A stretch of 64,000 nt of DNA from IMG/VR virus record IMGVR_UViG_3300025319_000005, positions 148,633 to 212,632 of that record; one strand, written 5' to 3'. Both the position numbers and the translations under genes were made by a program. Source of the stretch: a virus. The notes under the pieces are model-generated. The model did not search any database, was not told where the DNA came from, and worked only from the letters and a program-made list of their open reading frames with translations. Shown here one piece after another: positions 24,223 through 61,353 of this stretch (position 1 is the stretch's first letter; each line of letters opens with the position of its first letter).

Positions 24223-24301
24223 TACCTTCAATAGGATTCGAACCTACATTTTCAGCTCCGTTACACTTATTGAGTCCGTAGCTCAATGTGGCTATAAAGG
24301 C
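24223..24301 (-). tRNA. Degenerate or atypical tRNA, anticodon uncertain
   Basis: A good T-arm (GTAGG-TTCGAAT-CCTAT) and an acceptor stem (GCCTTTA / TGAAGGT with two G-U pairs, A73) are present, 79 nt in all. The middle does not fold as a normal D-arm plus anticodon arm. The best hairpin TTGAG-CTACGGA-CTCAA would give anticodon ACG (Arg) but sits 10 nt too early. It abuts the stop codon of an HNH gene, so it may have been damaged by that insertion. Confidence 0.4.
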
Positions 24302-24302
24302 A

Positions 24303-24989
24303 TTATATTAATTCATATCGTTTTGCCCACTTTCTCACCGCAACATCACTAACTCCAAATTTTCTACCAAGTGCACAATATGAATTATTTTCTATCATTT
24401 CTTTTAATTCTTCTTTAGAGGGTCTGTTTTTTACTTTTCTAAAATTTAATCTAGGTACATATTTTCTCGTTGTTTTTTTATTTGTTTTATTTTTTTTTGC
24501 ATTTTTTCTGTCTACGCCAATTTTACCACGGCAATGAGTTTCTAATGTGAAATTGCAGTTTGGACATAAAAATCTTAAGTTTTCTAATCTATTATCATTA
24601 TTTATTCCGTTTTCGTGGTCAATAATTAAACTAATTTTTTTACCTCTCCATATTTCTCCTTGTCCACATTCTTTACATTCATATTCTATCATGTTATTAT
24701 CTCGTATTCTTTTTTTTAAACAAGCCCTTGCAACAGAACTGTTTTCACAAAAAATTTCTTCATCACTTTTCCTTAATAATCTGTCTTCATTAAACATTTT
24801 TTTAGCAAAATCACTACGGTTTAAAAAATGAGAAGTATCTATTGACCATTTATTTAAATTTGTTTTAAGTATTTTATAAGATGAAGAAGAATCGCTTCTT
24901 CCAGATTTTACTATAACATCTCTAAATGTGATGCTTTCAGATACTAATTTTTGTAATTCTTCTTTTGTATATTCTTTATGTTCTTTCAT
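24303..24989 (-). CDS. HNH homing endonuclease
   Basis: 228 aa. Classical HNH core: CKECGQ (~108), LIIDHENGINNDNRLENLRF, then CPNCN. A C-terminal helix-turn-helix (ALGRKFGVSDVAVRKWAKRY) probably binds DNA. It lies between tRNA-Cys and the atypical tRNA, inside the tRNA cluster. A hairpin (TTCTAAC...GTTAGAA) ends 4 nt before the ATG and may limit its translation. Confidence 0.88.
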   Translation of the reverse strand: MKEHKEYTKEELQKLVSESITFRDVIVKSGRSDSSSSYKILKTNLNKWSIDTSHFLNRSDFAKKMFNEDRLLRKSDEEIFCENSSVARACLKKRIRDNNMIEYECKECGQGEIWRGKKISLIIDHENGINNDNRLENLRFLCPNCNFTLETHCRGKIGVDRKNAKKNKTNKKTTRKYVPRLNFRKVKNRPSKEELKEMIENNSYCALGRKFGVSDVAVRKWAKRYELI

Positions 24990-25022: not shown

Positions 25023-25046
25023 ATTTTTTAATAAAGTAAATAGTTG

Positions 25047-25122
25047 AGGATAAGAAGAGAATTAAACTCCTGTTAAATATGTTTTGCAGACATATCCCGA
25101 TTTCAACATTGGGTACTTATCC
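25047..25122 (-). tRNA. tRNA-Cys(GCA)
   Basis: 76 nt. Acceptor GGATAAG/CTTATCC, anticodon arm TATGT-CTGCAAA-ACATA, discriminator U73 as required for Cys. Cys codon TGT is present in the leader of this cluster. Confidence 0.93.
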
Positions 25123-25139
25123 TTGTAAAAATTAAAAAA

Positions 25140-25403
25140 GTAAAATCCTAAGTATAGCCGCGATTTTGTTCTATCTCATCATTTATCTGAAGGTATTGCT
25201 ACCAACTGGAGACTTTAAACGTCTACCACGCACCTACCCGACTATCAACAACGTAAAGGTTCCCCGTCTACAGTCTGTTTGGCTTGCATCCTATGTTGCG
25301 GAAGTACATACGCTATTTGTTATAGCTTCTTCCTCCTTTTAAAAGATGTCGCGAACTTCCTCTCGATTTTAAGAATCGAGCGATGAGTCCTTCAGGATTT
25401 TAC
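25140..25403 (-). ncRNA. rnpB: RNase P RNA
   Basis: About 264 nt. The ends form a perfect 10-bp P1 helix (GTAAAATCCT at 25140-25149 with AGGATTTTAC at 25394-25403). On the minus strand GAGGAAGTTCGCGA near the 5' end (CR-I) pairs with TCGCGGCT near the 3' end (CR-V) to form P4, keeping the conserved bulged U. Other bacterial signatures are present: CGCAACATAGGATGCAAGCC, then GATAAATGATGAGATAGAAC before the 3' P4 strand. It is shorter than E. coli M1 RNA (377 nt). It lies among tRNA genes and presumably matures them with the host or a phage protein subunit. Confidence 0.93.
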
Positions 25404-25411
25404 TTTTCTTG
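25400..25411 (-). other. Shared linker CAAGAAAAGTAA
   Basis: The 12-mer CAAGAAAAGTAA joins tRNA-Thr to the RNase P RNA. The same 12-mer joins tRNA-Ile to the second structured RNA (26001-26012). A processing or leader element is likely. Confidence 0.5.
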
Positions 25412-25483
25412 AGGCTCCACTGACAATCGATGTCAGGACTCAAATTTACAAGATTCGTGTTTTGCCACTTAAACTACGGAGCC
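25412..25483 (-). tRNA. tRNA-Thr(TGT)
   Basis: 72 nt. Acceptor GGCTCCG/TGGAGCC, anticodon arm CGAAT-CTTGTAA-ATTTG, T-arm CTGAC-ATCGATT-GTCAG. Immediately precedes rnpB. Confidence 0.9.
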
Positions 25484-25499
25484 ATTATTTGTTCTTATG

Positions 25500-25573
25500 T
25501 GGAATCTACCGGCATTGAACCGGTCTCTCAGGCGTGCAAGGCAAGTGTTCTAAGCCAAATGAACTAAGACCCC
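25500..25573 (-). tRNA. tRNA-Ala(TGC)
   Basis: 74 nt. Acceptor GGGGTCT/AGATTCC contains the G3-U70 pair that identifies tRNA-Ala, with A73. Loop CTTGCAC gives TGC, though the anticodon stem has two mismatches. T-arm ACCGG-TTCAATG-CCGGT. Confidence 0.82.
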
Positions 25574-25614
25574 AATTTAATTTGTTCAAAGTACAAATTA
25601 TTAAAAACTTTTGG

Positions 25615-25687
25615 CGAGTATGACCGGTCCTGACCCGGCGACCTCCTCATAGACAGTGAGGCATTCTTCCAACTGAACTACACACTC
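25615..25687 (-). tRNA. tRNA-Asp(GTC)
   Basis: 73 nt. Acceptor GAGTGTG/CATACTC, anticodon arm CCTCA-CTGTCTA-TGAGG, G73 as in other Asp tRNAs, followed by CCA. Confidence 0.92.
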
Positions 25688-25700
25688 ATTATTTTTTAAA

Positions 25701-26007
25701 AAAGTAAGACGCCATTTCGCTGATAGCGTTTTTTGTGTTCTGTTTAATGCGCCAAAGAACATCTGATTATGTTCAGCATTTAGCGTTCATGCTTGGTTAT
25801 TATAACATACTAACATTCCTAATATTGTCTGATTACCTATTTTGAGTTTGCATAGTAGGTTGATTTTTATTTCCAGGGTAAAAATCAACAAACAAACCTA
25901 ACGTCTGATAAACTTTATTTTTCATCCGGTAAACGTTTTGTACATTGTTTAGTTCATTAGGCTAAAACAACACGTCTTTTTCACGGACAACATTAGTAAC
26001 TTACTTT
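25701..26007 (-). ncRNA. Structured RNA of unknown class, about 307 nt
   Basis: A gene-free stretch between tRNA-Ile and tRNA-Asp. The ends pair (AAAGTAAG at 26000-26007 with CTTACTTT at 25701-25708). An internal 10-bp hairpin TTGATTTTTA / TAAAAATCAA with loop CCCTGGAAA is strong. It lacks tmRNA features (no terminal T-arm, no plausible tag frame) and RNase P signatures. It is preceded by the same 12-nt linker as rnpB. Phage RNAs such as GOLLD and ROOL also sit beside tRNAs but are far longer. Identity unknown. Confidence 0.6.
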
Positions 26008-26012
26008 TCTTG

Positions 26013-26086
26013 TAGTGCATCTGAGAATTGAACTCAGTACTTCCACGTTATCGGCGTGGCACTCTGGACCGATGAGTTAATGCACT
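26013..26086 (-). tRNA. tRNA-Ile(GAT) with unusual C33
   Basis: 74 nt. Acceptor AGTGCAT/ATGCACT, A73, anticodon stem CCACG/CGTGG. The loop is CCGATAA, so position 33 is C instead of the almost universal U. Confidence 0.85.
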
Positions 26087-26100
26087 GTTTTTATTTAAAG

Positions 26101-26173
26101 TCTAGGTGGCCTGCTCCGACCAGGCGGTCTCCAGTTCCCAAAACTGGCGGATTTCCAACTTTCCCACACCTAG
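26101..26173 (-). tRNA. tRNA-Pro(TGG)
   Basis: 73 nt. Acceptor CTAGGTG/CACCTAG, anticodon arm CCAGT-TTTGGGA-ACTGG, T-arm GCCTG-GTCGGAG-CAGGC, A73. Confidence 0.9.
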
Positions 26174-26211
26174 AAATTTTGTTTATCTTTCCAAACTGTC
26201 TTTTAATAAGA

Positions 26212-26274
26212 GTTCAAGCTCGGTTATCCACCGATTCGAAGGACTGCATTAGCCTTCTCTGCAGACACTTGAAC
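26212..26274. other. tRNA-sized structured element
   Basis: 63 nt closed by a perfect 7-bp stem (GTTCAAG/CTTGAAC). Inside are GAAGG/CCTTC and TCGG/CCGA hairpins. It has the outline of a tRNA but no anticodon arm with U33. Perhaps a decayed tRNA or a stable spacer RNA like T4 RNAs C and D. Confidence 0.45.
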
Positions 26275-26279
26275 ATTGG

Positions 26280-26352
26280 AGCGAAAAACCAGGTTCAAAC
26301 TGGCGACCCCCAGAGTGGAAATCTGGCGCTCTATCAACTGAGCTATTTTCGC
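26280..26352 (-). tRNA. tRNA-Gly(TCC)
   Basis: 73 nt. Acceptor GCGAAAA/TTTTCGC, D-arm TAGCTCAGTTGATAGAGC, anticodon arm CCAGA-TTTCCAC-TCTGG, U73 followed by CCA. Confidence 0.93.
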
Positions 26353-26362
26353 TTATGTATAT

Positions 26363-26428
26363 AATTCTCTCAGACCATATTACCAAGATTTACTTTGGAC
26401 TCACCGTATTTTAAAAGTGAGCAGAATT
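26363..26428. other. tRNA-sized structured element
   Basis: 66 nt closed by AATTCT/AGAATT, with inner hairpins GCTCAC/GTGAGT and CCAA/TTGG. No anticodon. Second element of this kind in the cluster. Confidence 0.4.
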
Positions 26429-26441
26429 GTATTTAATTAAA

Positions 26442-27389
26442 TTATTCTAATAATAATTCATCAATTGTTAAAATTGAATTTAAATTATCTATTGTTTTTT
26501 TAAATATCATTTTAACATTAATGTTGTTTTGTTCTAATACTAAACTCATTTTTGTTTTATCTATTATTGAATAATATCCTTTAGTTTCTATGTATAAGTT
26601 AAAATTTGGCAAATAAAAATCTGGCACATACGTTTTTTCAACACCTTCTTTAATATATTGAATATATATTTTTCTAATCCACAATATTTTATTGTCATTT
26701 AACCATTGCGACATTTTTAATTCATATTTTCCTCTTAAAGAATATTCTTCACCAATAATATTTTTTTGTTTATAAAATTTCACATGTTTAAAATTGTTAC
26801 TTATTTCATTTTCTTCTAACATCTTGGAGTGAGATTTGCTAATTTTCGATTTTTGTTCAGAAGAAAGTGGCTTTCCTAATTGGTGATGTATTCTCTTACC
26901 AGTAGCATACATTTCTTTTTGTTGCTCAGATGCTTTATTTACCCTATTATCAGTTTCCTTTGTAAGTCCTCTTGACCATCCCATTTTTGATTTAGTCTCT
27001 GCATTACTGTATTTTTTATTTTTATATTCAACTCCATCCGGTGTATGCATTTGAAATATATGACCACATATACCAAGTTTGTGAAATATTAATTCGCAAT
27101 GAGGACATTTATATTTATCTACATCAACTTTCCAAGATTCATCTACTGTTATTTGTTTTTTATTAACTGTATTACATTTATTATAATGCCTTTCAAAATT
27201 AGAAACAGAAATATTTTTATTACATTTATCACAACATTTTGTGTTTTTAGGTTTTCCAAGTAAAGAAATACTTAAATTTTTTAATCTTTCTTTTAACTTT
27301 GGATTAGATTCACAATTTACTATATGAGCACCAAATTGTTGTGGGATCTCAAACTCAAAAGACTCTTTGCAATGCGGACAAGTTTTCAT
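26442..27389 (-). CDS. Homing endonuclease: zinc fingers, NUMOD3 and PD-(D/E)XK nuclease
   Basis: 315 aa. CPHC...H...C (4-25), CDKC...H..C (53-71) and CPHC...H...H (~95-115) are zinc fingers. MGWSRGLTKETDNRV and LSSEQKSKISKSHSK are NUMOD3-like DNA-binding segments. The C-terminus (RGKYELKMSQWL, then YVPDFYLPNFNLYIETKGYY) is a PD-(D/E)XK core with D...ExK. It is inserted in tRNA cluster 1 and has CTATTTAT 11 nt upstream (27401-27408). Confidence 0.85.
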   Translation of the reverse strand: MKTCPHCKESFEFEIPQQFGAHIVNCESNPKLKERLKNLSISLLGKPKNTKCCDKCNKNISVSNFERHYNKCNTVNKKQITVDESWKVDVDKYKCPHCELIFHKLGICGHIFQMHTPDGVEYKNKKYSNAETKSKMGWSRGLTKETDNRVNKASEQQKEMYATGKRIHHQLGKPLSSEQKSKISKSHSKMLEENEISNNFKHVKFYKQKNIIGEEYSLRGKYELKMSQWLNDNKILWIRKIYIQYIKEGVEKTYVPDFYLPNFNLYIETKGYYSIIDKTKMSLVLEQNNINVKMIFKKTIDNLNSILTIDELLLE

Positions 27390-27400
27390 ACTTTTTTATT

Positions 27401-27408
27401 ATAAATAG
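27401..27408 (-). promoter_or_regulatory. CTATTTAT late promoter motif
   Basis: Within TTTTTTATACTATTTATA on the minus strand, 11 nt before the ATG at 27389; the same extended sequence occurs in both tRNA leader regions. Confidence 0.5.
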
Positions 27409-27458
27409 TATAAAAAATTGCAGGTTAGAAAATTGTTAGCACGTTATTGTTTTTTGAG

Positions 27459-27541
27459 TGGGAGTTGATGGAGACGAGCCACCCGAGTTTTAAAACAACC
27501 GATTTACAGTCGGTCCCGCTACCCCTACGGAATAAACTCCC
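27459..27541 (-). tRNA. tRNA-Tyr(GTA)
   Basis: 83 nt, class II. Acceptor GGGAGTT/AACTCCC, anticodon arm ACCGA-CTGTAAA-TCGGT, long variable arm, A73. Confidence 0.92.
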
Positions 27542-27553
27542 ATTTTAATGTTG

Positions 27554-27625
27554 CACAGACGGTTATAATCGAAATAACTACGTGTAGTTTTTGGAGAACT
27601 CACCGACACCAAGCCTGTCGTCTGT
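27554..27625 (-). tRNA. tRNA-Trp(CCA), D-arm atypical
   Basis: 72 nt. Acceptor ACAGACG/CGTCTGT, G73 as in Trp, loop CTCCAAA with CCA anticodon on a 4-bp stem, T-arm GTTAT-TTCGATT-ATAAC. The D-arm does not pair well, so efficiency is uncertain. Confidence 0.75.
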
Positions 27626-27664
27626 ATTTTATCTATTTTTTAAGCTGTAAGATAATTAGCTAAG

Positions 27665-27736
27665 TAGCGAAAACTGGAATCGAACCAATGTAGACACAGC
27701 TTATGAGACTGGTGGGAAACCAACATCCTTTTCGCA
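27665..27736 (-). tRNA. tRNA-Met(CAT), possible initiator
   Basis: 72 nt. Anticodon loop CTCATAA; T-arm ATTGG-TTCGATT-CCAGT. The 1-72 pair is T-T, a mismatch like that of bacterial initiators, but the three G-C pairs of the fMet anticodon stem are missing. Could be elongator, initiator or Ile2. Confidence 0.75.
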
Positions 27737-27749
27737 ATATATTTTTTTG

Positions 27750-27822
27750 TAGCCCCTGCCGGTCCTGACCCGACGACTTCATTCATGTAAAAAATGCACT
27801 CTACCAACTGAGTTAAGGGGCT
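27750..27822 (-). tRNA. tRNA-Lys(TTT)
   Basis: 73 nt. Acceptor AGCCCCT/AGGGGCT, D-arm TAACTCAGTTGGTAGAGT, loop TTTTTAC on a stem with one mismatch, T-arm GTCGG-GTCAGGA-CCGGC, A73. Confidence 0.82.
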
Positions 27823-27827
27823 ATTAG

Positions 27828-27901
27828 TAGCATATATCAGAATCAAACTGATGACCTTCCTCATATGAAAAGGACGCTCTAATCAACTGAGCTAATATGC
27901 T
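27828..27901 (-). tRNA. tRNA with CAT anticodon (Met or Ile2)
   Basis: 74 nt. Acceptor AGCATAT/ATATGCT, anticodon arm TCCTT-TTCATAT-GAGGA, T-arm ATCAG-TTTGATT-CTGAT, A73. The leader of this cluster has ATG but no ATA codon, which favours Met. Confidence 0.85.
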
Positions 27902-27911
27902 ATTTAAAAAG

Positions 27912-27983
27912 AGCGGGTGATGAGGATTAAACTCACGGCCTCATCCTTGGCAAGGATGCGCTCTATCGCTGAGCTACACCCGC
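27912..27983 (-). tRNA. tRNA-Gly(GCC)
   Basis: 72 nt. Acceptor GCGGGTG/CACCCGC, anticodon arm CATCC-TTGCCAA-GGATG, U73. First tRNA after attenuator 1. Confidence 0.93.
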
Positions 27984-28058: not shown

Positions 28059-28095
28059 CAAAAAACCCGAACCTTTTTTAAGTCCGGGTGTGTTA
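28059..28095 (-). terminator. Attenuator terminator of tRNA cluster 1
   Basis: Minus strand CCCGGAC (28082-28088) pairs with GTTCGGG (28066-28072), followed by TTTTTTGTTG. The bases just 5' (TAACACACCC, 28086-28095) can instead pair perfectly over 10 bp with GGGTGTGTTA (28147-28156) inside the leader reading frame, so terminator and antiterminator exclude each other. Confidence 0.85.
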
Positions 28096-28128
28096 TGTTG
28101 TTTCCCTTTTAAGTTTTTATATCTTACT

Positions 28129-28257
28129 TCATGAAACAAAATGTTTTAACACACCCATATTATCGCGGCTATAATCGCCAGGGGTAATACACGCATACCC
28201 GACTGTCGGCATGACTGCCCAAATCGTTGTAATTGTTGTATGTGTTAAATTTTTCAT
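28129..28257 (-). CDS. Leader peptide of tRNA cluster 1
   Basis: 42 codons from ATG 28257 to TGA 28129. Codons 9-29 read ITTIWAVMPTVGYACITP then GDY. These contain Ile, Thr, Trp, Ala, Met, Pro, Gly, Tyr, Cys and Asp, each served by a tRNA in the downstream cluster, plus two Val. Both Gly isoacceptors have a matching codon (GGG for TCC, GGC for GCC). The antiterminator strand lies in codons 34-37, after this stretch, so a stall at any of these codons leaves it free. Promoter 81 nt upstream of the ATG. Confidence 0.75.
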   Translation of the reverse strand: MKNLTHTTITTIWAVMPTVGYACITPGDYSRDNMGVLKHFVS

Positions 28258-28283
28258 TGAAGATGTTTTCTTTTTAATTAAAC

Positions 28284-28291
28284 TTAAATAG
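28284..28291 (-). promoter_or_regulatory. CTATTTAA motif in leader region 1
   Basis: Part of AATTTTTTATACTATTTAA, conserved with the cluster 2 leader; 26 nt before the leader ATG. A possible second, late promoter. Confidence 0.45.
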
Positions 28292-28337
28292 TATAAAAAA
28301 TTATTTTCTCAAATATTTCTTTCGACCAATTATAACG

Positions 28338-28370
28338 CAAAGATATAATTAAAGTTTAATAAAAAGCAAA
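28338..28370 (-). promoter_or_regulatory. Host-type promoter of tRNA cluster 1
   Basis: Minus strand TTTG (28367-28370), 21 nt spacer, TATCTTTG (28338-28345): a full match to the Bacteroidota consensus. About 60 bp around it are almost identical to the cluster 2 promoter. Confidence 0.8.
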
Positions 28371-33800: not shown

Positions 33801-33827
33801 TTGAAATTATTATTTTTTAATATAAAG

Positions 33828-33900
33828 TGCTTCCAGTTGGACTTGAACCAACGACCCGAAAATTAAGAATTTCCTACTCTACCATCTGAGCTATGAAAGC
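33828..33900 (-). tRNA. tRNA-Lys(CTT)
   Basis: 73 nt. Acceptor GCTTTCA/TGGAAGC, D-arm TAGCTCAGATGGTAGAGT, anticodon arm GGAAA-TTCTTAA-TTTTC, A73. Confidence 0.92.
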
Positions 33901-33927
33901 AATAATTTATAATGTATTATAGATATA

Positions 33928-33976
33928 TGTTGAGTAAAATCCACAGAATGTTCTATTTTATGGATTGTGCTCAACA
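33928..33976. other. Structured spacer element between tRNA-Lys genes
   Basis: 49 nt closed by TGTTGAG/CTCAACA with inner AATCCA/TGGATT and AGAA/TTCT pairs. Not a tRNA. Similar in size to the elements at 26212 and 26363. Confidence 0.45.
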
Positions 33977-33988
33977 AATATGTAATTG

Positions 33989-34062
33989 TGTGTCCGACAA
34001 GATTTGAACTTGTGACCTCCGCATTAAAAGTGCGGTATTCTAACCAGCTGAATTACGAACAC
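33989..34062 (-). tRNA. tRNA-Lys(TTT)
   Basis: 74 nt. Acceptor GTGTTCG/CGGACAC, anticodon arm CCGCA-CTTTTAA-TGCGG, T-arm ACAAG-TTCAAAT-CTTGT, A73. Confidence 0.93.
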
Positions 34063-34066
34063 ATAG

Positions 34067-34153
34067 TGTACCCAGAAAGATTCGAACTTTCAACGGCCTT
34101 TCGGCTCCCCACAGGGTAAAAACCTGTTGCTCTACCAATTGAGCCATGGGTAC
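34067..34153 (-). tRNA. tRNA with TTT anticodon and long variable arm
   Basis: 87 nt. Acceptor GTACCCA/TGGGTAC, D-stem GCTC/GAGC, anticodon arm ACAGG-TTTTTAC-CCTGT, T-arm GAAAG-TTCGAAT-CTTTC, A73. The variable region is 19 nt with a GCC-GAAA-GGC hairpin, a class II feature not expected for Lys. Confidence 0.85.
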
Positions 34154-34157
34154 AAAT

Positions 34158-34194
34158 AAAAAAGCCTGAATCTACACAGAGACTCAGGCTTTTT
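34158..34194 (-). terminator. Attenuator terminator before the tRNA-Lys trio
   Basis: Eleven-base-pair stem AAAAAGCCTGA / TCAGGCTTTTT with T6 following, placed between a Lys-rich leader peptide and three tRNA-Lys genes. The AAAAAG of its 5' arm can pair alternatively with CTTTTT just after the leader stop. Confidence 0.8.
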
Positions 34195-34209
34195 GGACTT
34201 ATAAAAAAG

Positions 34210-34275
34210 TCAATGAGCTATCGTCCCCGGAGACCAGGGTTTCTTAGATTTTTTTATTTTGATTATTGTTAACAT
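34210..34275 (-). CDS. Lys-rich leader peptide
   Basis: 21 codons: MLTIIKIKKSKKPWSPGTIA then His, stop TGA. Five of the first twelve codons are Lys (AAA x4, AAG x1), matching the TTT and CTT anticodons of the three downstream tRNAs. A CCCTGG-TCT-CCGGGG hairpin lies in its second half. The strong terminator begins 16 nt after the stop. Confidence 0.65.
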   Translation of the reverse strand: MLTIIKIKKSKKPWSPGTIAH

Positions 34276-34386
34276 TTTGTTTATTTTTTTAAATTAAAAA
34301 GAGCCCACACTCAACTGGTGGCTAATTTTTATGAACGAGTATTACCCAAGTTCTGTCATCCACTATGACAAATTTCTATTGTTATT
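34276..34386. other. Gene-free region with small hairpins
   Basis: Contains AGCCCAC/GTGGCT (about 34306-34330) and GTCAT/ATGAC (about 34356-34370) hairpins. No clear promoter or tRNA seen. Confidence 0.35.
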
Positions 34387-34739
34387 TTAACCTTGAATAT
34401 CTTGACATTCCGTGATGTTATAGGTCTTTATAAAATCCTTACCATCAGTTATTATTAAATCCAAGTTACTTGAATAGTACCCGTTATTAGAACCGTGTCC
34501 AGCTATTTTTACAGAATGTCCTTGTATTGGAATTAATTCAATTCCGTAATCAGGAATTCTTTTGAAGAAATCATCATTTGTTAAATCAAATTCTAATCCT
34601 TCAAATCAGCGATTGTTAAATCATCTAATGTTAATGAATGTGATTCACAACAATCTGATTCATGATTTGAATATAACTTTACTTCATTTTCAAATTCAAT
34701 TGCATCTGAGTCAACTTTTACTACTTTTAATTTGTTCAT
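34387..34739 (-). pseudogene. DUF7448-like gene with a one-base frameshift
   Basis: Frame 1 runs from ATG 34739 (MNKLKVVKVDSDAIEFENEV, then SNHESDCCESHSLTLDDLTI) to a TAG at 34593. The neighbouring frame continues with FEGLEFDLTNDDFFKRIPDY, then HGSNNGYYSSNLDLIITDG and TECQDIQG to a TAA at 34387. Adding one T to a T3 run at 34603-34605 fuses them (ADFEGLEF). The whole matches the DUF7448 pattern (SDCC..h, FEGLeF, GSNNGYYS). ATG 34739 avoids overlap with tRNA-His. Confidence 0.75.
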
Positions 34740-34754
34740 TTTATTTATGTTTTT

Positions 34755-34829
34755 GGGTGCTATATCGGCTACGACCCGATTACCTTCTGTACCACAAACA
34801 GACACTCTACCAATTGAGCTAATAACACC
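34755..34829 (-). tRNA. tRNA-His(GTG), no encoded G-1
   Basis: 75 nt. Acceptor GGTGTTA/TAGCACC, anticodon arm TCTGT-TTGTGGT-ACAGA, C73. The base at -1 is T, so the G-1 needed by HisRS is not encoded. Confidence 0.9.
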
Positions 34830-34842
34830 ATATTAAATTTGT

Positions 34843-35613
34843 TTAAAATACAAATTTTAAGACTTTAATATTATTTACTTTTTCACTATATCCAAAATTT
34901 CTAATTTCATCATGTATTTCTATGTGACAATTTGCACAAACCATAATACATTTATCAACTTCTACTTTTAATCTTTCAAAACCATAAGATTTGCCACCAA
35001 TAGTAAAATCTTTTTCACTTGGATTTGTATGATGAAATTGTAAAACTGATGTTGATTTATTATATCCACAACATTCACATTTCCATCCTTTATATTCAAT
35101 TAATCTAATTTTACTTCTTTTTCTCCAATCTATAACAGCCTGACTTTTGGTTTTAGTTTTTTGTCTTTTTTTATTTGTTTTAATCAAATCATCAGAAATG
35201 TAATTTCTAATTGTTGTCCTATCTACCTTAAAATAAGCGGCTGTTTTTCTTAAAGACTTACTTTCTATATAAAAATTAACAACTTCTATTTCAATAAGTT
35301 CTTTTTTCTTAAATGTACCACTTGATTTATTTAATCCATACAAATTACATATTTTAATTAACTTATCTTCTCCAATGTCCAAAATTGACCTTATTTCGTC
35401 ATAGCTTTTCAATTCTCTTCTGTAAGCAATTATTTTGTTTATAACTTCATCAGTTATTCCAATTAAAAAACTGTTTCTTACTCCGCCAAGTCCAACATTA
35501 TTTATGTGATAAGACACAGTGCTTTTTGAACACTTTAATTGTTCAACTATTTCTTTTATAGTTGAGCCTTTTTCTCTTAAAGAGATAATTTTATTTTTCA
35601 AACCTTTATCCAT
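34843..35613 (-). CDS. HNH homing endonuclease with helix-turn-helix repeats
   Basis: 256 aa from ATG 35613 (MDKGLKNKIISLREKG). Two or more HTH units precede the nuclease (IKEIVEQLKCSKSTVSYHIN; LRKTAAYFKVDRTTIRNYIS). HNH core: CECCGYNKS, LQFHHTNPSEKDF, CANCHIEIH. Inserted between tRNA-His and tRNA-Asn. ATATTTAT lies 20 nt upstream (35634-35641). Confidence 0.87.
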   Translation of the reverse strand: MDKGLKNKIISLREKGSTIKEIVEQLKCSKSTVSYHINNVGLGGVRNSFLIGITDEVINKIIAYRRELKSYDEIRSILDIGEDKLIKICNLYGLNKSSGTFKKKELIEIEVVNFYIESKSLRKTAAYFKVDRTTIRNYISDDLIKTNKKRQKTKTKSQAVIDWRKRSKIRLIEYKGWKCECCGYNKSTSVLQFHHTNPSEKDFTIGGKSYGFERLKVEVDKCIMVCANCHIEIHDEIRNFGYSEKVNNIKVLKFVF

Positions 35614-35684
35614 ATTATTAACTTTATTTGTTAATAAATATGGGATAAAATTCAAAAAAACAAAATTTATTTCAAAGAACGTTG

Positions 35685-35756
35685 CGGACCCGCCTGGACT
35701 TGAACCAGAAAACGCAGATTAACAATCTGAAGTGATACCAATTTCACCACAGGTCC
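35685..35756 (-). tRNA. tRNA-Asn(GTT)
   Basis: 72 nt. Acceptor GGACCTG/CGGGTCC, anticodon loop TTGTTAA on CAGA/TCTG, T-arm TCTGG-TTCAAGT-CCAGG, G73. Confidence 0.92.
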
Positions 35757-35762
35757 CAATAT

Positions 35763-36083
35763 TTATTTTTTAATTTCTTCTTTAGTAATAGAATCACCAA
35801 CCTCTATTACTTTGCCAAAAACTTTTTTTGTCCAACCATTTATTCCTCCTTTATTATTTCCTATTAAACAACCTTTTTGTGCATTAATTGCTTTTACTAA
35901 ATGTGTGTAGAAATTGCCGTGCACTTTCGCATAGACTATATCTCCTACTTTAACTTCATCTATTGTAATTGGGGCAATTTTATGTTCTTGTCCCGACTTA
36001 ATTAAAGGAACCATTGAGTTTCCTTTTTCACTGGTGACGAAAGTCTCACCGTTTTGTAATCTTTCTAATTTATAATTTCTCAT
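35763..36083 (-). CDS. S24/S26-like serine peptidase domain protein
   Basis: 106 aa. GNSMVPLIKSGQ (Ser at ~23) and VKVGDIVYAKVHGNFYTHLV-K (Lys ~64) match the Ser-Lys dyad layout of LexA/UmuD/signal-peptidase-like phage proteins; CLIGNNKGGINGW follows as usual. There is no DNA-binding domain or TM, so it is more like the small stand-alone phage members. It lies inside tRNA cluster 2. Confidence 0.7.
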   Translation of the reverse strand: MRNYKLERLQNGETFVTSEKGNSMVPLIKSGQEHKIAPITIDEVKVGDIVYAKVHGNFYTHLVKAINAQKGCLIGNNKGGINGWTKKVFGKVIEVGDSITKEEIKK

Positions 36084-36102
36084 TTTTTATTATTTGTTTT
36101 GG

Positions 36103-36188
36103 CGGAAAACGGGCAAATCGAATACCATTCAAATTAACGAACCTCTCGCTTAGCAGGCGGAGACAACTCCCTGGTTGTTTCGTTTTCC
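36103..36188 (-). tRNA. tRNA-Ser(GCT)
   Basis: 86 nt, class II. Acceptor GGAAAAC/GTTTTCC, loop CTGCTAA, long variable arm, T-arm GGTA-TTCGATT-TGCC, G73 followed by CCA. Confidence 0.9.
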
Positions 36189-36215
36189 ATTTATTATTTC
36201 AAAGAACATTTTTTG

Positions 36216-36301
36216 CAGAGGCTAAGAGAGTTCAACTCTTACAACCTTTTCAAGTCCTAGCTATTTTCAAGATAGTGTACCTCCGTCAACTGGGAGCCTC
36301 T
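36216..36301 (-). tRNA. tRNA-Ser(TGA)
   Basis: 86 nt, class II. Acceptor AGAGGCT/AGCCTCT, loop CTTGAAA, long variable arm, T-arm AAGAG-TTGAACT-CTCTT, G73. Confidence 0.92.
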
Positions 36302-36380
36302 ATGTTTGCCTATTAACTCTATCACTCACCTAAACGGTGGATTACAGAACTTCGGCAGGATTTTATTCCTGTTCAGTTAG

Positions 36381-36457
36381 TGGAGATTGCCAGAATTGAA
36401 CTGGCGTTAATTTCACGGTTCTTCAAACCGCAGCTAGACCGTCTCAGCTAAATCTCC
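36381..36457 (-). tRNA. tRNA-Phe(GAA)
   Basis: 77 nt. Acceptor GGAGATT/AATCTCC, anticodon arm GCGGT-TTGAAGA-ACCGT, T-arm GCCAG-TTCAATT-CTGGC, A73. First tRNA after attenuator 2; probable substrate of the phage PheRS. Confidence 0.93.
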
Positions 36458-36483: not shown

Positions 36484-36518
36484 AAAAAACCCGAACTCTT
36501 TTGTAAGTCCGGGTGTGT
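36484..36518 (-). terminator. Attenuator terminator of tRNA cluster 2
   Basis: Minus strand CCCGGACT (36506-36513) pairs with AGTTCGGG (36490-36497), followed by T6. ACACACCCG (36510-36518) can instead pair over 9 bp with CGGGTGTGT (36563-36571) in the leader frame. Near-identical to attenuator 1. Confidence 0.85.
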
Positions 36519-36542: not shown

Positions 36543-36632
36543 TTACGATTCAAAAGGACAATACACACCCGCTCGGCTTTTATTACTAAAACTCGATTTG
36601 TTAAAATGCTTATGTGTATTATTTGTTGTCAT
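36543..36632 (-). CDS. Leader peptide of tRNA cluster 2
   Basis: 29 codons from ATG 36632 to TAA 36543. Codons 4-18 read NNTHKHFNKSSFSNK: Asn, His, Lys, Phe and Ser, the exact specificities of cluster 2, with only Thr extra. Lys codons include AAG and AAA (CTT and TTT tRNAs); Ser codons include TCG and AGT/AGC (TGA and GCT tRNAs). The antiterminator strand covers codons 20-23. No Trp, Met, Ile, Pro, Cys, Asp or Tyr codon precedes it. Confidence 0.75.
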   Translation of the reverse strand: MTTNNTHKHFNKSSFSNKSRAGVYCPFES

Positions 36633-36659: not shown

Positions 36660-36704
36660 TATAAAAAATTATTTTTCTAAAAATTCTTATTATCAATTAT
36701 AACG

Positions 36705-36736
36705 CAAAGATATAATTAAAGTTTCAAAAAAGCAAA
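36705..36736 (-). promoter_or_regulatory. Host-type promoter of tRNA cluster 2
   Basis: Minus strand TTTG (36733-36736), 20-nt spacer, TATCTTTG (36705-36712). The downstream CGTTATAATTG is identical to cluster 1. Confidence 0.8.
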
Positions 36737-36809
36737 TTTATTTTGATTTATTTTTTATTTCATTAAAAAAGGTATCTCGGGTTTTCTGATAATTTGCCGT
36801 TGTCATACT

Positions 36810-36828
36810 GATTAGAGTCGAACTAATC
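36810..36828 (-). other. T-arm-like hairpin
   Basis: GATTAG-TTCGACT-CTAATC on the minus strand looks exactly like a tRNA T-arm, but no acceptor or anticodon arm can be built around it. It may be a tRNA remnant. The rest of 36740-36955 shows no gene I can support. Confidence 0.4.
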
Positions 36829-36955
36829 GTGTTGCGTTTCTACATTTCTACAATTTACATTTTTACAAAGTCGGCCTTTTTGATTCTATTGCCTTTTCCA
36901 TAAGGATGTCTTGTGAGACTTGTTTTTTGTATTTATCTCCTTTCGAAGTTAATTA

Positions 36956-37042
36956 CTATGAACGTTTTTTAGAAACTTTCTTGAAACTATCTGGTGTATC
37001 GTCACCTGAACCTATCCGGTAAATGTTGCCGGAACCATCCAT
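36956..37042 (-). CDS. Small protein, 28 aa
   Basis: Reads MDGSGNIYRIGSGDDTPDSF then KKVSKKRS, stop TAG. The composition is protein-like rather than random AT-rich translation. It starts 18 nt after the stop of the 37597-37061 gene, so it is probably cotranscribed. No family recognised. Confidence 0.5.
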   Translation of the reverse strand: MDGSGNIYRIGSGDDTPDSFKKVSKKRS

Positions 37043-37060
37043 ACTGGCCCGAGAATGTTT

Positions 37061-56912: not shown

Positions 56913-58553
56913 TTATCTACGATTTATTTCATCTCTAACTTGTGCCGCTTTTCTATAGTCTTCATATTCTAAAGCTTTCTCAAGTTCGATGTTTAATTCA
57001 TCTATATTCATATCAGTTACATTTTTTGTCGGAGCCGGTCCTTTTTCTTCTTCTGGAGTTCTCGTTAATAAATCTTCTTGATTTCTACCTAACAAAGCTG
57101 CTATTTCATCTTCATGTTCTGGAGGAAACATATCTTCTGGTTCAGGAATTTCCTCTCCTTGATTCTCATATGCTTCAATTTCACCACTTACAAGTCTTAC
57201 TATTTGTTTTATTTTTTCTATAGCTCTTGGTCCGTCATGAATTGTGTCATCCATTAATGTCATAAATTCGTCAGGTTCCATTGAGGCCATTTTATTAAGA
57301 ACATAAGCTATTATGGTATAATCTTCACCTTCTTCGACAACAACAAACGATAATGCATCATGAAGATATTTCCAAAATTGAGGTCCAATTAATTTTAACC
57401 AATGCTCATCATAATAAGAATCAGCCTGTTTAACAACTTCTTTAGCCAAAGGTTCTCCATGTTTTTCTTGAATGTCTGACAAATGTTGTAAAAACAAGAT
57501 TTCAACTGCAGCTTTTGCTACTTCATGTAAAAGAACTGGAAATATAATAGCCGTTGCTTCTGCTTTCACTTCATCTCCTTGAGTATCTAACTTAGAACTT
57601 CCCCACATCTGTCTTGCTCCAAATGATTGTTCTACTGGCATTTTCCACATAAATATTTCAACATTTGGCATCATTTTATTATATAAAGGATAAAGTCTTG
57701 GGTCAATTCCATCTAATGCATTTTTTATTTCATCAAAAACTTTATGTGCTCTATATCCGGCACCCATCATAAGAGTATTGCTTACAATTCTCTTATTTAC
57801 ATGTTTTTTTATAATTTCTAATTCTTCTGGAGTAAACTGTTGTGCAACTTCTTCTTCTGGATCATCGTTATCTTCAGGTGGTTCGATTTCACCTGGGTTT
57901 TTTAATTTAGCATCAATCATTTGCATCACTTCATCAGAAAGACCAAATTTTCTTTTCACAATTTCTTTAGCTAAATTTTCTAATGCCCCTCTATTTCTTC
58001 TTTCATAAGTAAGAATCATATTAAGAGCATTTTGAATTTCCATCATGCTCATTGAACCGACGTCACCTAAAGTTCTTACAATTGATTTAAATTCTTCACT
58101 TCCTATTTTTTCAATAGTACTTTGGTCAAGTCTTTGTTTTGAAAATAATTCAACATTACCAAAAGGCGTTTCTGATTGTCCTTGAATTCCACTTCTGATT
58201 GATGGATGTGGCTCGTGTTCTCCTGGGTCAATATCCATTGGAGCCTCTTTTATAAGGCGCTTCATTCTGGATTTTTCTTTTTCTAACTTAGCCATTTTAA
58301 CCCACTCATTAAGAAATTCTTCTGTTTTTATAGAATTTTGAATTTCTTTCTTTTTAGCTTTAGGATTTGGCTTTGGAAAAGTTCCGGGCTTAGGTATCTT
58401 AATAGGATTTGGACGTCTTTCTCTTTGTGGAGTTATTACCGGAGCTGGCTTAGTTGTTGGAGCAGGCTGTGCACCATTTTCTTTTAAAAATTTTTTGACT
58501 CCCTCTGAAATAAACTTTTGAAGTTGTTTTTTGGTAAGTTTTATGTTTTTCAT
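56913..58553 (-). CDS. Large virion-type protein with tag and C-terminal UVR motif
   Basis: 546 aa. MKNIKLTKKQLQKFISEGVK ends the tag with FISE. A Pro/Lys linker follows. Residues ~325-350 contain PVLLHEVAKAAVEILFLQHL, an HExxK helix reminiscent of phage metallopeptidase-like or structural proteins. The last 30 residues (IDELNIELEKALEYEDYRKA then AQVRDEI) match the UVR motif of UvrB/UvrC and Clp proteins. CTATTTAA lies 23 nt upstream. Confidence 0.65.
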   Translation of the reverse strand: MKNIKLTKKQLQKFISEGVKKFLKENGAQPAPTTKPAPVITPQRERRPNPIKIPKPGTFPKPNPKAKKKEIQNSIKTEEFLNEWVKMAKLEKEKSRMKRLIKEAPMDIDPGEHEPHPSIRSGIQGQSETPFGNVELFSKQRLDQSTIEKIGSEEFKSIVRTLGDVGSMSMMEIQNALNMILTYERRNRGALENLAKEIVKRKFGLSDEVMQMIDAKLKNPGEIEPPEDNDDPEEEVAQQFTPEELEIIKKHVNKRIVSNTLMMGAGYRAHKVFDEIKNALDGIDPRLYPLYNKMMPNVEIFMWKMPVEQSFGARQMWGSSKLDTQGDEVKAEATAIIFPVLLHEVAKAAVEILFLQHLSDIQEKHGEPLAKEVVKQADSYYDEHWLKLIGPQFWKYLHDALSFVVVEEGEDYTIIAYVLNKMASMEPDEFMTLMDDTIHDGPRAIEKIKQIVRLVSGEIEAYENQGEEIPEPEDMFPPEHEDEIAALLGRNQEDLLTRTPEEEKGPAPTKNVTDMNIDELNIELEKALEYEDYRKAAQVRDEINRR

Positions 58554-58782: not shown

Positions 58783-61353
58783 TTATGAACATTTGCTTGA
58801 GGAACAATTTATGCAAACAACGCACCCTTCTTGATAAACAAGTGTATTTTTAGCATTGCAATTAGAACAGGTTTCTGTACTTTTTTCACCATCTAATATG
58901 TATTTTTTTAAAGTTCTACCAATTGCTCTTGCAAAAGATGTTATATTTCCCTCTGATTTATTTAGTTGTTCAACAATGAATTTTATATCAGAACCATGTC
59001 TCAATGAAAGCGAAATCATACGAGTTAAAGCCTCTTGTTCATCAGTTTCAAAGTGCTCTACAATATTTTCAATTATCATTCCATCTGCATCAAGGTCATA
59101 TCTTCCTCTTTTCACTTTTGTAAGAGTGCCATTTTTTAATTTTACCGGTAAGTGGATGGATTTTTCTTTAAAAGTAAAAACCTCATAAGGTTCTTCTGAA
59201 AGAAGCCCAACAAGAACAATCCATTTTTTACCATCGGTTGTTACGTGATATATATCACATGGTAGTGTTTTTGGTCTATGTGGAGCTGTTGTTTTATTAA
59301 TTTTATTTGATTTTTCTTCTTCTTTTTTTTCTGCTGAACCAAGAACTTCTGTCATTGTTCCTGCTCTATATGTAGTTCCTCCTTTTACGGTTTTAGTGTT
59401 AAATAAATCCATATATAGTTTTTTGAAATTTTCAAATGGGTAATCACTTGGTATATTTACCGTTTTACTCATTGCTGAATCAATATATTTAGACATAACC
59501 TCCATTGTTTTTGAGTGTTCGTCAATTCCTAACTGAACAGTTGTTGCCGCCCATTCAGCAGTATTTTCCCATTTGTTTTTTAATTCAAGGAAACGAACAG
59601 CATAATCTTTAACAACAGTTTCTCTTAATAGCCCTCTTGATTTATCAATCTTCCAAGAATATCCATCAAAATCTGTTTTTAATAAATTTTCATCCCCTTC
59701 CTTAATCCATTTCCACGACTGTAAGTTATCTGAATTAAGAGAAGATGGTTGTGTATTAAAGGCTTTATTCTCCCAATCAATATTGGAAGGCACAACAAGA
59801 CCTTCTGGTGGATAAGGCATCATTGTCGTTCTTGTATACGTAGGCATAAATACTGGTTCTAAACCACCACTTACAACATTTGCAAAAATAGAAGAGTTTC
59901 CTGTCGGTTGAATAGAAAGTAAGTGGGAATTTCTGATTCCATATCTTTCAATCATAGATTGAGTTTCAGTGGAAAGATTTGAAATAAATTTACTTGCAAG
60001 ATATTTTTCTTTATCAAATAATGGAAATGCTCCTTTTTCTTTTGCAATTAAAGAAGACGCCTGATAAGATTCATTTGCTATAAATTTCATTAGATTTTCT
60101 GTTATTTCTAAAGCGTAATCAGAACCATATCTTATATTTAACATCATTAAAGCTGAACCATATCCCATAATTCCAAGTCCAATTCTTCTTTTGCTTTTTA
60201 GATTTTCTTTTTGAGAGTCAAGAGGTACACTAGTTATATCATTAACATTATCCATGAAACGTATTGCTATTGGTATTATTTCTTTAATTTTTTTATAATC
60301 CCAATCTTTTTTTTCAAAATCAATAAATTGCGTTAAATTTATTGAGCCAAGTAAACAGACACCGCCAGTTGGAAGTAATTGTTCACCACAAGGATTACTT
60401 GCTGATATATATTCATTATAATATAAATTATTTAATCTATTAATTGTATCAACGAAAAGAACTCCTGGTTCATTTCTGTTATATGTGGATTTCATTATTA
60501 AATCCCATAATTCATTTGCATTTTTATAAGTTTTATAAATAATTACTGGATAACCTTTTTCTTTCCATTTTTTCAGGTTTCCATCCCACTCTTTATTATA
60601 TATATCTTTATTAAAATCAAAATCAGGAAATTCCAAATTCCAAGGAAGATTATTTTGTACAGATTTCATAAATTCATCCGTTATTAAAAGTGACATATTA
60701 AATTTTGTCAACCTTCCAGGTGTTTGTTTTGCTGTTATAAACTCCTCAATATCAGGATGATAACACGACATTGTTACCATCTGGGCACCTTTTCTTATTT
60801 TTCCTTTTGCTTTTTCGTTTTTTGACTTTTTACCACTTCCTTCTGTTATCACAGCAGATTGTGTATCCCACATATCAAGCATTCTAACAGAACCAGGACT
60901 TTCATTCCCAATCCCTTCAATAAATCCACCTCTTGGCCTCATTGTATCAGCACAAAATCCATAACCACCTTCAGACTTTAAAATAAGAGCTTGTCTTCTT
61001 AAAGCCGACAAGATTCCTTCCATAGAATCTCTGTCTTCTCCAACGAATCCATCTACAAAACAATTAATATAAGTGGTGCCCTTTATTCCGGTTCCAGCAT
61101 TTGATGTAATTCTTCCTCCTGGAACGAATTTAAAATCTTCAAGCGCCCACATAAACTGATTTGTCCAATATTCTTGATTTAATTCTACTTTTGCTAAATC
61201 TTTAGCAACCCTCAATTGAGTTTCATCAATTGTTTCATTTAAATATTTATATGTTTGTTCATAAATTTCTTTACTAAATTCATCTACAAATTTCGTCCCT
61301 TTTATTTCTTTTAATTTTCCTTTTGTTTGATTTTCCATTGTTTCTATTGCCAT
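58783..61353 (-). CDS. nrdJ: Class II (B12-dependent) ribonucleotide reductase
   Basis: 856 aa. It makes deoxynucleotides for replication using adenosylcobalamin instead of a tyrosyl radical subunit. Active-site pieces: YINCFVDG with the redox Cys, NPCGEQLLPTGGVCLLGSIN (the N-x-C-x-E core and second Cys), GIMGYGSALMML, and SIQPTGNSSIFANV. The C-terminus carries a 100-residue extension and a zinc ribbon CSNC...CINC with a final CS pair that likely shuttles electrons. Single-gene enzyme, so no NrdB is needed. Confidence 0.93.
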   Translation of the reverse strand: MAIETMENQTKGKLKEIKGTKFVDEFSKEIYEQTYKYLNETIDETQLRVAKDLAKVELNQEYWTNQFMWALEDFKFVPGGRITSNAGTGIKGTTYINCFVDGFVGEDRDSMEGILSALRRQALILKSEGGYGFCADTMRPRGGFIEGIGNESPGSVRMLDMWDTQSAVITEGSGKKSKNEKAKGKIRKGAQMVTMSCYHPDIEEFITAKQTPGRLTKFNMSLLITDEFMKSVQNNLPWNLEFPDFDFNKDIYNKEWDGNLKKWKEKGYPVIIYKTYKNANELWDLIMKSTYNRNEPGVLFVDTINRLNNLYYNEYISASNPCGEQLLPTGGVCLLGSINLTQFIDFEKKDWDYKKIKEIIPIAIRFMDNVNDITSVPLDSQKENLKSKRRIGLGIMGYGSALMMLNIRYGSDYALEITENLMKFIANESYQASSLIAKEKGAFPLFDKEKYLASKFISNLSTETQSMIERYGIRNSHLLSIQPTGNSSIFANVVSGGLEPVFMPTYTRTTMMPYPPEGLVVPSNIDWENKAFNTQPSSLNSDNLQSWKWIKEGDENLLKTDFDGYSWKIDKSRGLLRETVVKDYAVRFLELKNKWENTAEWAATTVQLGIDEHSKTMEVMSKYIDSAMSKTVNIPSDYPFENFKKLYMDLFNTKTVKGGTTYRAGTMTEVLGSAEKKEEEKSNKINKTTAPHRPKTLPCDIYHVTTDGKKWIVLVGLLSEEPYEVFTFKEKSIHLPVKLKNGTLTKVKRGRYDLDADGMIIENIVEHFETDEQEALTRMISLSLRHGSDIKFIVEQLNKSEGNITSFARAIGRTLKKYILDGEKSTETCSNCNAKNTLVYQEGCVVCINCSSSKCS

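Follow-up and report, generated by a model that had tools for sequence, protein, structure and literature searches.

What phage tRNA genes are for has been an open question for more than 50 years, and the locus studied here raises it in a particular form, namely what a short open reading frame (ORF) followed by a terminator does ahead of a phage tRNA cluster. Phage tRNA clusters are thought to replace host-depleted tRNAs as a defence against host tRNA-cleaving systems (PMC10264068), and huge phages are reported to carry arrays with as many as 67 tRNA genes (PMC7162821). The window, i.e., the whole stretch of 64,000 nucleotides that we analysed, corresponds to positions 148633-212632 of a viral record of 212,632 bases. 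The original prediction, made from the letters of the window, placed a host-type promoter, a 42-codon leader ORF and a terminator with a T tract upstream of tRNA cluster 1, and all of these elements were recovered on the minus strand (Table 1). Terminator 1 was the best-scoring terminator within 8 kb; it starts 39 nt after ORF 1, and the next gene is tRNA-Gly(GCC). The pairing that had been proposed between a segment inside the leader frame and the bases upstream of the terminator proved to be exact, TAACACACCC (28095-28086) being the complement of GGGTGTGTTA (28156-28147) over 10 bp. Together with region 1 and the terminator, this pairing completes the four-region order of a classical attenuator.

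Codons 9-29 of leader 1 specify only Ile, Thr, Trp, Ala, Val, Met, Pro, Gly, Tyr, Cys and Asp, as had been read before, and nothing else. This set is identical to the set of tRNA isotypes found in cluster 1 (11/11). The earlier tRNA list for this cluster held for all isotypes but one, because the gene taken for tRNA-Lys is tRNA-Val(TAC) (27749-27822) and no Lys tRNA is present there. Among 5,623 windows of 21 amino acids from twelve proteins of the same phage, none fell wholly within the leader 1 set, and the frequency of the set raised to the 21st power was 4e-8.

Table 1. Features of the two cassettes, of the probable third cassette and of the tRNA clusters in the window (positions are those of the window).
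Feature	Position	Strand	Sequence or remark
Leader 1 promoter, Bacteroidota type	28337..28370	-	-33 TTTG 28370-28367, 21-nt spacer, -7 TATCTTTG; from sequence
Leader peptide ORF 1	28129..28257	-	42 codons, ATG 28257 to stop 28129, MKNLTHTTITTIWAVMPTVGYACITPGDYSRDNMGVLKHFVS
Leader 1 region 1, codons 4-6	28240..28249	-	TTTAACACAT / TTAACACA; pairable with region 2
Leader 1 control codons 9-29	28171..28233	-	between regions 1 and 2
Leader 1 region 2, antiterminator 5' half	28147..28156	-	GGGTGTGTTA; within leader frame, codons 34-37
Leader 1 region 3	28086..28095	-	TAACACACCC; overlaps 5' arm of terminator
Intrinsic terminator 1 (regions 3:4)	28059..28089	-	ACCCGGACTT-AAAAA-AGGTTCGGGT at 28089-28065, then T tract
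tRNA cluster 1	25046..27983	-	ARAGORN (default and relaxed), Rfam
tRNA-Gly(GCC)	27983-27911	-	cluster 1
tRNA-Met	27901-27827	-	cluster 1
tRNA-Val(TAC)	27822-27749	-	cluster 1
tRNA Met/CAT	27736-27664	-	cluster 1; second CAT, relaxed ARAGORN
tRNA-Trp	27625-27553	-	cluster 1; relaxed ARAGORN
tRNA-Tyr	27541-27458	-	cluster 1; relaxed ARAGORN
tRNA-Gly(TCC)	26352-26277	-	cluster 1
tRNA-Pro	26173-26100	-	cluster 1
tRNA-Ile(GAT)	26086-26012	-	cluster 1
tRNA-Asp	25687-25612	-	cluster 1
tRNA-Ala	25573-25499	-	cluster 1
tRNA-Thr	25483-25411	-	cluster 1
tRNA-Cys	25122-25046	-	cluster 1
Leader 2 promoter -7 block	36703..36714	-	TATATCTTTGCG
Leader peptide ORF 2	36543..36632	-	MTTNNTHKHFNKSSFSNKSRAGVYCPFES
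Leader 2 control codons 7-19	36614-36576	-	His, Lys, Phe, Asn, Ser only
Leader 2 region 1	about 36620-36613	-	AATACACA; partner of region 2
Leader 2 region 2	36561..36570	-	GGGTGTGTAT
Leader 2 region 3	36518-36511	-	ACACACCC
Intrinsic terminator 2	36489..36514	-	
tRNA cluster 2	33827..36457	-	
tRNA-Phe	36457-36380	-	cluster 2
tRNA-Ser(TGA)	about 36300-36216	-	cluster 2; read by eye
tRNA-Ser(GCT)	36188-36100	-	cluster 2
tRNA-Asn	35756-35684	-	cluster 2
tRNA-His	34828-34755	-	cluster 2
tRNA-Lys	34153-34066	-	cluster 2
tRNA-Lys	34062-33988	-	cluster 2
tRNA-Lys(CTT)	33900-33827	-	cluster 2
Probable leader peptide ORF 3	34210..34275	-	MLTIIKIKKSKKPWSPGTIAH, Lys-rich; precedes three Lys tRNAs
Intrinsic terminator 3	34161..34192	-	AAAGCCTGAGTCT-CTGTGT-AGATTCAGGCTTT

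The window contains a second cassette of the same kind. The control codons of leader 2 read, in order, His Lys His Phe Asn Lys Ser Ser Phe Ser Asn Lys Ser, and the amino acids so specified are exactly the isotypes of cluster 2 (5/5); no 13-amino-acid window out of 5,719 from proteins of the same phage lay wholly in this set (chance, 3e-7). The promoters and terminators of cassettes 1 and 2 are near-identical, and their tRNA and codon sets are disjoint. At the level of sequence, no other single observation is as clear as these two copies of one cassette, whose codons have been rewritten for tRNA sets that do not overlap. A third cassette is probable ahead of the three Lys tRNAs, where the pairing of regions 2 and 3 is weak (p=0.17).

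Related contigs were found via the class II ribonucleotide reductase encoded at 58783-61353, and tRNAs were then located in them. A helicase-based search for relatives returned the same contig only, and searches with exact DNA patterns of the cassette returned one near-identical fragment and no relative, because the sequences diverge while the architecture persists. In the first clusters of relatives, viewed by eye, the leader codons mirrored the tRNAs as they do in the window. Leaders were collected by a mechanical rule, namely a terminator at most 1.5 kb upstream of a tRNA and an ATG-initiated ORF, 12-60 codons long, whose end lies 15-50 nt ahead of the terminator stem; the statistic was the fraction of codons cognate to a leader's own cluster, with double centring, compared with permutations. 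The discovery set of 24 leader-cluster pairs, which was not blind, gave z=10.3, above all 200,000 permutations. With rule and statistic unchanged, a validation set of 21 pairs from new genomes gave z=8.5 (0/200,000). For all 45 leaders, among which homologous ones are not independent samples, z was 13.9 (0/200,000 permutations), and permutation within genomes only (10 genomes, 41 leaders) gave 0/100,000. Isotype coverage was 92% for a leader's own cluster versus 60% for other clusters. Note that tRNA genes miscalled by the gene finder (e.g., in G011) were left as called, so that the tests are conservative, and that three leaders judged to be false (G018, a CDS tail; MKGSDISE... of W04; MVGLVKR... 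of phage G) were left out of the positional test described below and kept in the permutation tests.

By this rule, the codon mirror was found in related huge phages, in three records of 636-735 kb, and in two isolates, namely Bacillus phage G and Agrobacterium phage Atu_ph07. LR756502 has MTTSFQQQQQQQINRTD ahead of four Gln tRNAs and MKTTIKNTSSRSRSSKSGEVRLYS ahead of Arg, four Ser and Arg; LR756501 has MNNILHINLLNSLCLLGIKLIG ahead of five Leu tRNAs; and LR756504 has MKAMILSLCLSLSLSLQKLGVVGVCKVIS ahead of Leu, Leu, Ser, Cys, Ser, Ser, Leu, Leu. We take the records LR756500-LR756511 and LR745206 to come from the deposit of Al-Shayeb et al. 2020 (PMC7162821). The rule yielded no leader in the tRNA-rich phages W05, W06, G037, T5, XacN1 and CBB. 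Conservation of the leader frame, the pairing and the codon match in related phages had been named beforehand as a test of the attenuator model, and the model passed it. The multi-codon mirror of the original prediction was likewise borne out, but it is not unique to this phage, being present in other huge phages. On the reverse strand of G027 L050 (~2616-2680), the ORF MKKFMTIYIPFYPIYIPYRG lies directly ahead of Pro, Tyr and Ile tRNAs, which its codons mirror; no U-tract terminator follows it, and it perhaps has a different output.

Two leaders belong to isolated phages. In Bacillus phage G, gp86 (58381-58515) has 44 residues and no assigned function and lies 69 nt before tRNA-Cys. It reads MMKCSWFEFDTDFTDVFYCEYTFYSLYTFLD..., the tRNAs below it are Cys, Asp, Phe, Tyr, Glu, Thr, Leu, Ser and Trp, and 27/28 codons are cognate versus a background of 0.50 (P=9e-8). 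In Agrobacterium phage Atu_ph07, 21/22 codons of AUZ95228 are cognate, and the 2:3 helix is strong. A candidate leader, MQRSLQTYWTSIHTEIKESQMVDPFALGCNLGRT of G048, has all 20 amino acids in 34 residues above a cluster of ~19 isotypes, whereas only 0.05% of windows of this length from proteins of the window phage hold all 20. Among the KVP40-group Vibrio phages (KVP40 178804-178917, minus strand, and L216-L221), an ORF of the form MTHS..LRSDFLRSEFVYLANP..QKWD is kept with in-frame indels. It is 37 residues long and contains 18-19 of the amino acids; together with a conserved terminator, it precedes a cluster that holds tRNAs of all isotypes, on the tRNA-Pro side. As to an attenuator leader, these features are suggestive only.

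When the leaders were aligned where region 2 begins, cognate codons proved to be concentrated and not evenly scattered. Their fraction was 0.71-0.80 at codons -12 to -4, 0.36 at codons -3 to -1 and 0.22 (expected, 0.23) inside region 2; at leader codons 2-3 it was 0.14. Such a placement is what the sequences should present if a waiting ribosome must leave region 2 uncovered. The 2:3 duplex was stronger with a leader's own terminator than across leaders (-13.9 versus -9.2 kcal/mol, 0/200,000), and taken singly it was not significant in 15/28 leaders, including leader 3, G027, G070 and W03. The 1:2 pairing was also specific as a set (-7.1 versus -5.5, 0/100,000); it was clear in about one third of the leaders, and in leader 1 it is weaker than the 2:3 pairing. 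The terminators are strong and follow 18-50 nt after nearly every leader, the exception being G027 L050.

Folding of the leader 1 transcript was predicted with the RNA cut before region 4, the ribosome masked and the A-site codon varied. The predicted probability of the antiterminator was ~0.9 as long as the A site had not passed codon 30 and ~0 from codon 32 onward, a limit that matches control codons 9-29. The truncated transcript without a ribosome also formed 2:3, and the region 1 protector is therefore weak there. Cut-transcript folding was used instead of equilibrium folding of the full leader, which was uninformative as a test of the ribosome effect, because the terminator was mostly favoured at any position of the ribosome mask. 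Since the terminator wins at equilibrium, the mechanism must be kinetic; timing matters in known attenuators too (PMC1183508).

Judged from codon choice, the leaders appear to be matched to individual tRNA species and not simply to amino acids, because their Ile and Arg codons and their decodability in general follow the tRNAs present. Specifically, leaders over clusters with only Ile(GAT) (or AAT) used ATT/ATC in 22/24 Ile codons, whereas those over clusters with only Ile(TAT) used ATA in 11/15 (p=5e-5). Arg codons showed the same trend (p=0.02), the direction agreed without significance for Ser (p=0.1) and for Leu (p=0.33), and in a broader test 137/209 codons were decodable versus 117 expected (z=2.9). 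Leader codons would also offer a way to infer which tRNAs an operon encodes and to recover genes that gene finders overlook: in G011, two tRNA genes were spotted in this way, namely Glu(TTC), which had been called Cys, and Ile(TAT), which had been called Leu. In G044 (L163, reverse strand, 2622-2696), the leader MRTITIITTIKKAIKYRHVTRVLI has Ile as ATA only in its control stretch and the cluster has a CAT-anticodon tRNA, suggesting from codon usage that this tRNA is Ile2 (lysidine) and not Met.

With the match over 45 leaders, the specific 2:3 pairing and codons placed to expose region 2, the attenuator reading of leader 1 is supported, and we consider it very probable that the cassettes are ribosome-mediated transcription attenuators ahead of phage tRNA operons. 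The codon/tRNA matching, the codon position and the specific 2:3 and 1:2 pairings are read from the sequences themselves; that the leader cassettes are transcribed and translated, that ribosomes stall, that transcription terminates and in which direction the operon responds are what we infer. Because tRNAs are not translated, any effect of leader translation on them would have to come through their transcription or the fate of the RNA. In the proposed mechanism, the leader ORF would be translated while RNA polymerase transcribes the leader. If all sensed tRNAs are present and charged, the ribosome would enter region 2, 3:4 would fold, and transcription would stop before the tRNA genes. If any one sensed tRNA is scarce, the ribosome would wait on that codon, upstream of region 2; the free region 2 could then capture region 3, the terminator would be blocked, and the whole tRNA cluster would be transcribed. 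When the leader is not translated, region 1 could occupy region 2 and the terminator would form. Control codons kept matched to the downstream tRNAs would thus make an OR-gated, isoacceptor-level shortage sensor for replacing missing tRNAs, and the natural trigger may plausibly be host tRNA cleavage by defence systems, given PMC10264068.

Other explanations of the same observations were weighed. A 42-codon leader could be picked by eye among the many ORFs of a 64-kb window, and the discovery set was formalised only after some leaders had been viewed; however, the validation leaders, selected and scored with everything fixed, and the within-genome permutations speak against coincidence or shared base composition, as does the positional profile, which drops to background inside region 2. 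A chance origin of the match was rejected on the permutations and the validation, and its remaining probability is negligible. A small functional peptide whose composition tracks the cluster by accident, with a plain upstream terminator behind it, would fit the annotation of some leaders as hypothetical proteins (phage G gp86, Atu_ph07 AUZ95228) and the peptide-level conservation of the KVP40-group ORF. On the other hand, leaders of different clusters share the cassette architecture and no peptide sequence, and even where one genome has paralogous cassettes, their residues change with the tRNAs nearby, the motifs SFQQQQQQQ, SLCLSLSLSL and AYYYEE tracking Gln, Leu/Ser and Tyr/Glu clusters, respectively; we regard this explanation as very improbable.

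Direct binding of uncharged tRNA by the leader RNA in the manner of a T-box would likewise sense tRNA supply and control transcription, but the match spans 10-25 consecutive in-frame codons and not one specifier. No T-box match was obtained in the window (E<=1) or in nine related loci (E<=1e-4), a T-box or other known cis-regulatory RNA was rejected for lack of a match, and binding of this type is, in our estimate, extremely improbable. Translation might also sense tRNA supply with an output other than intrinsic termination, such as Rho access, transcript decay or tRNA precursor processing, and the equilibrium preference for the terminator, the G027 L050 leader and the several weak 2:3 helices would all agree with this. 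Such an output is nevertheless unlikely for the leaders in general, since nearly every leader has its strong intrinsic terminator close behind, the 2:3 pairing is specific to the leader's own terminator, and the codons sit exactly upstream of region 2.

The cassettes can be compared with known systems. Known leader attenuators sense one to three amino acids (two or three in thr and ilv) and control biosynthetic enzymes. The trp, his, leu, thr, ilvGMEDA, ilvBN and pheA attenuators have, like the cassettes described here, a short leader ORF with regulatory codons, overlapping 2:3 and 3:4 pairings and an intrinsic terminator before the first gene; their 1:2 pairing has a counterpart that is clear in about one third of the present leaders. 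Unlike them, the present leaders would sense up to 11 isotypes (in one candidate, all 20 amino acids in 34 codons), precede tRNA genes rather than biosynthetic or synthetase genes, are phage-borne and are apparently tuned to isoacceptors. T-box riboswitches also sense tRNA charging and control transcription termination, as proposed here, but bind one uncharged tRNA directly without translation. While the mechanism is known, the multi-isoacceptor sensor over tRNA genes appears to be new. In the open-access literature, we came across no account of leader attenuation at the tRNA operons of phages; PMC10264068 does not mention attenuation, Bacillus phage G or KVP40, and the huge-phage paper PMC7162821 has no mention of leaders or attenuation. 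The work in PMC10264068 deals with tRNA sequence and resistance, whereas the elements described here would tie expression to depletion itself.

If this is true, phage tRNAs would be supplied on demand to replace missing ones rather than as a constant codon supplement, and a single attenuator could track at least ten tRNA species simultaneously; the operons seem to ask whether their own tRNAs run short. As Bacillus phage G and Atu_ph07 are cultured, the question can be put to a direct test. A wider reading, which we hold to be evenly balanced, is that jumbo phages of several bacterial phyla may share a modular, rapidly reprogrammed sensor cassette that has been copied ahead of different tRNA sets, with codons rewritten at isoacceptor resolution up to all-20-amino-acid leaders (G048, possibly G070 and the KVP40 group), turning tRNAs on only when host tRNAs are destroyed or exhausted, e.g., by anticodon nucleases.

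Several further features were seen beside the cassettes. Between tRNA-Thr and tRNA-Cys of cluster 1 (25139-25400, minus strand), the class A model of bacterial RNase P RNA is matched over its full length but weakly (39.2 bits versus a gathering threshold of 100; E 2e-9), and no such match was found in nine related loci; an RNase P RNA-like phage gene within a tRNA operon would be notable. Non-coding RNA-like stretches without an Rfam match lie at 25700-25990, between tRNA genes, and at 36760-37060, upstream of leader 2 (both minus strand). A degenerate tRNA-like sequence (24223-24301, minus strand; 34.6 bits), with an anticodon read as His-GTG or Arg-ACG, lies downstream of cluster 1, and ORFs that by eye look like HNH-type endonucleases lie inside the tRNA clusters (24303-24989, 26442-27389 and 34843-35655, minus strand). 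In addition, tRNAs with anticodon CTA (amber suppressor type) occur in L052 (G027), L056 (G032), L076 (LR756501), L170 (G036), L205 (XacN1) and L212 (CBB), often isolated or paired, in related as well as unrelated jumbo phages.
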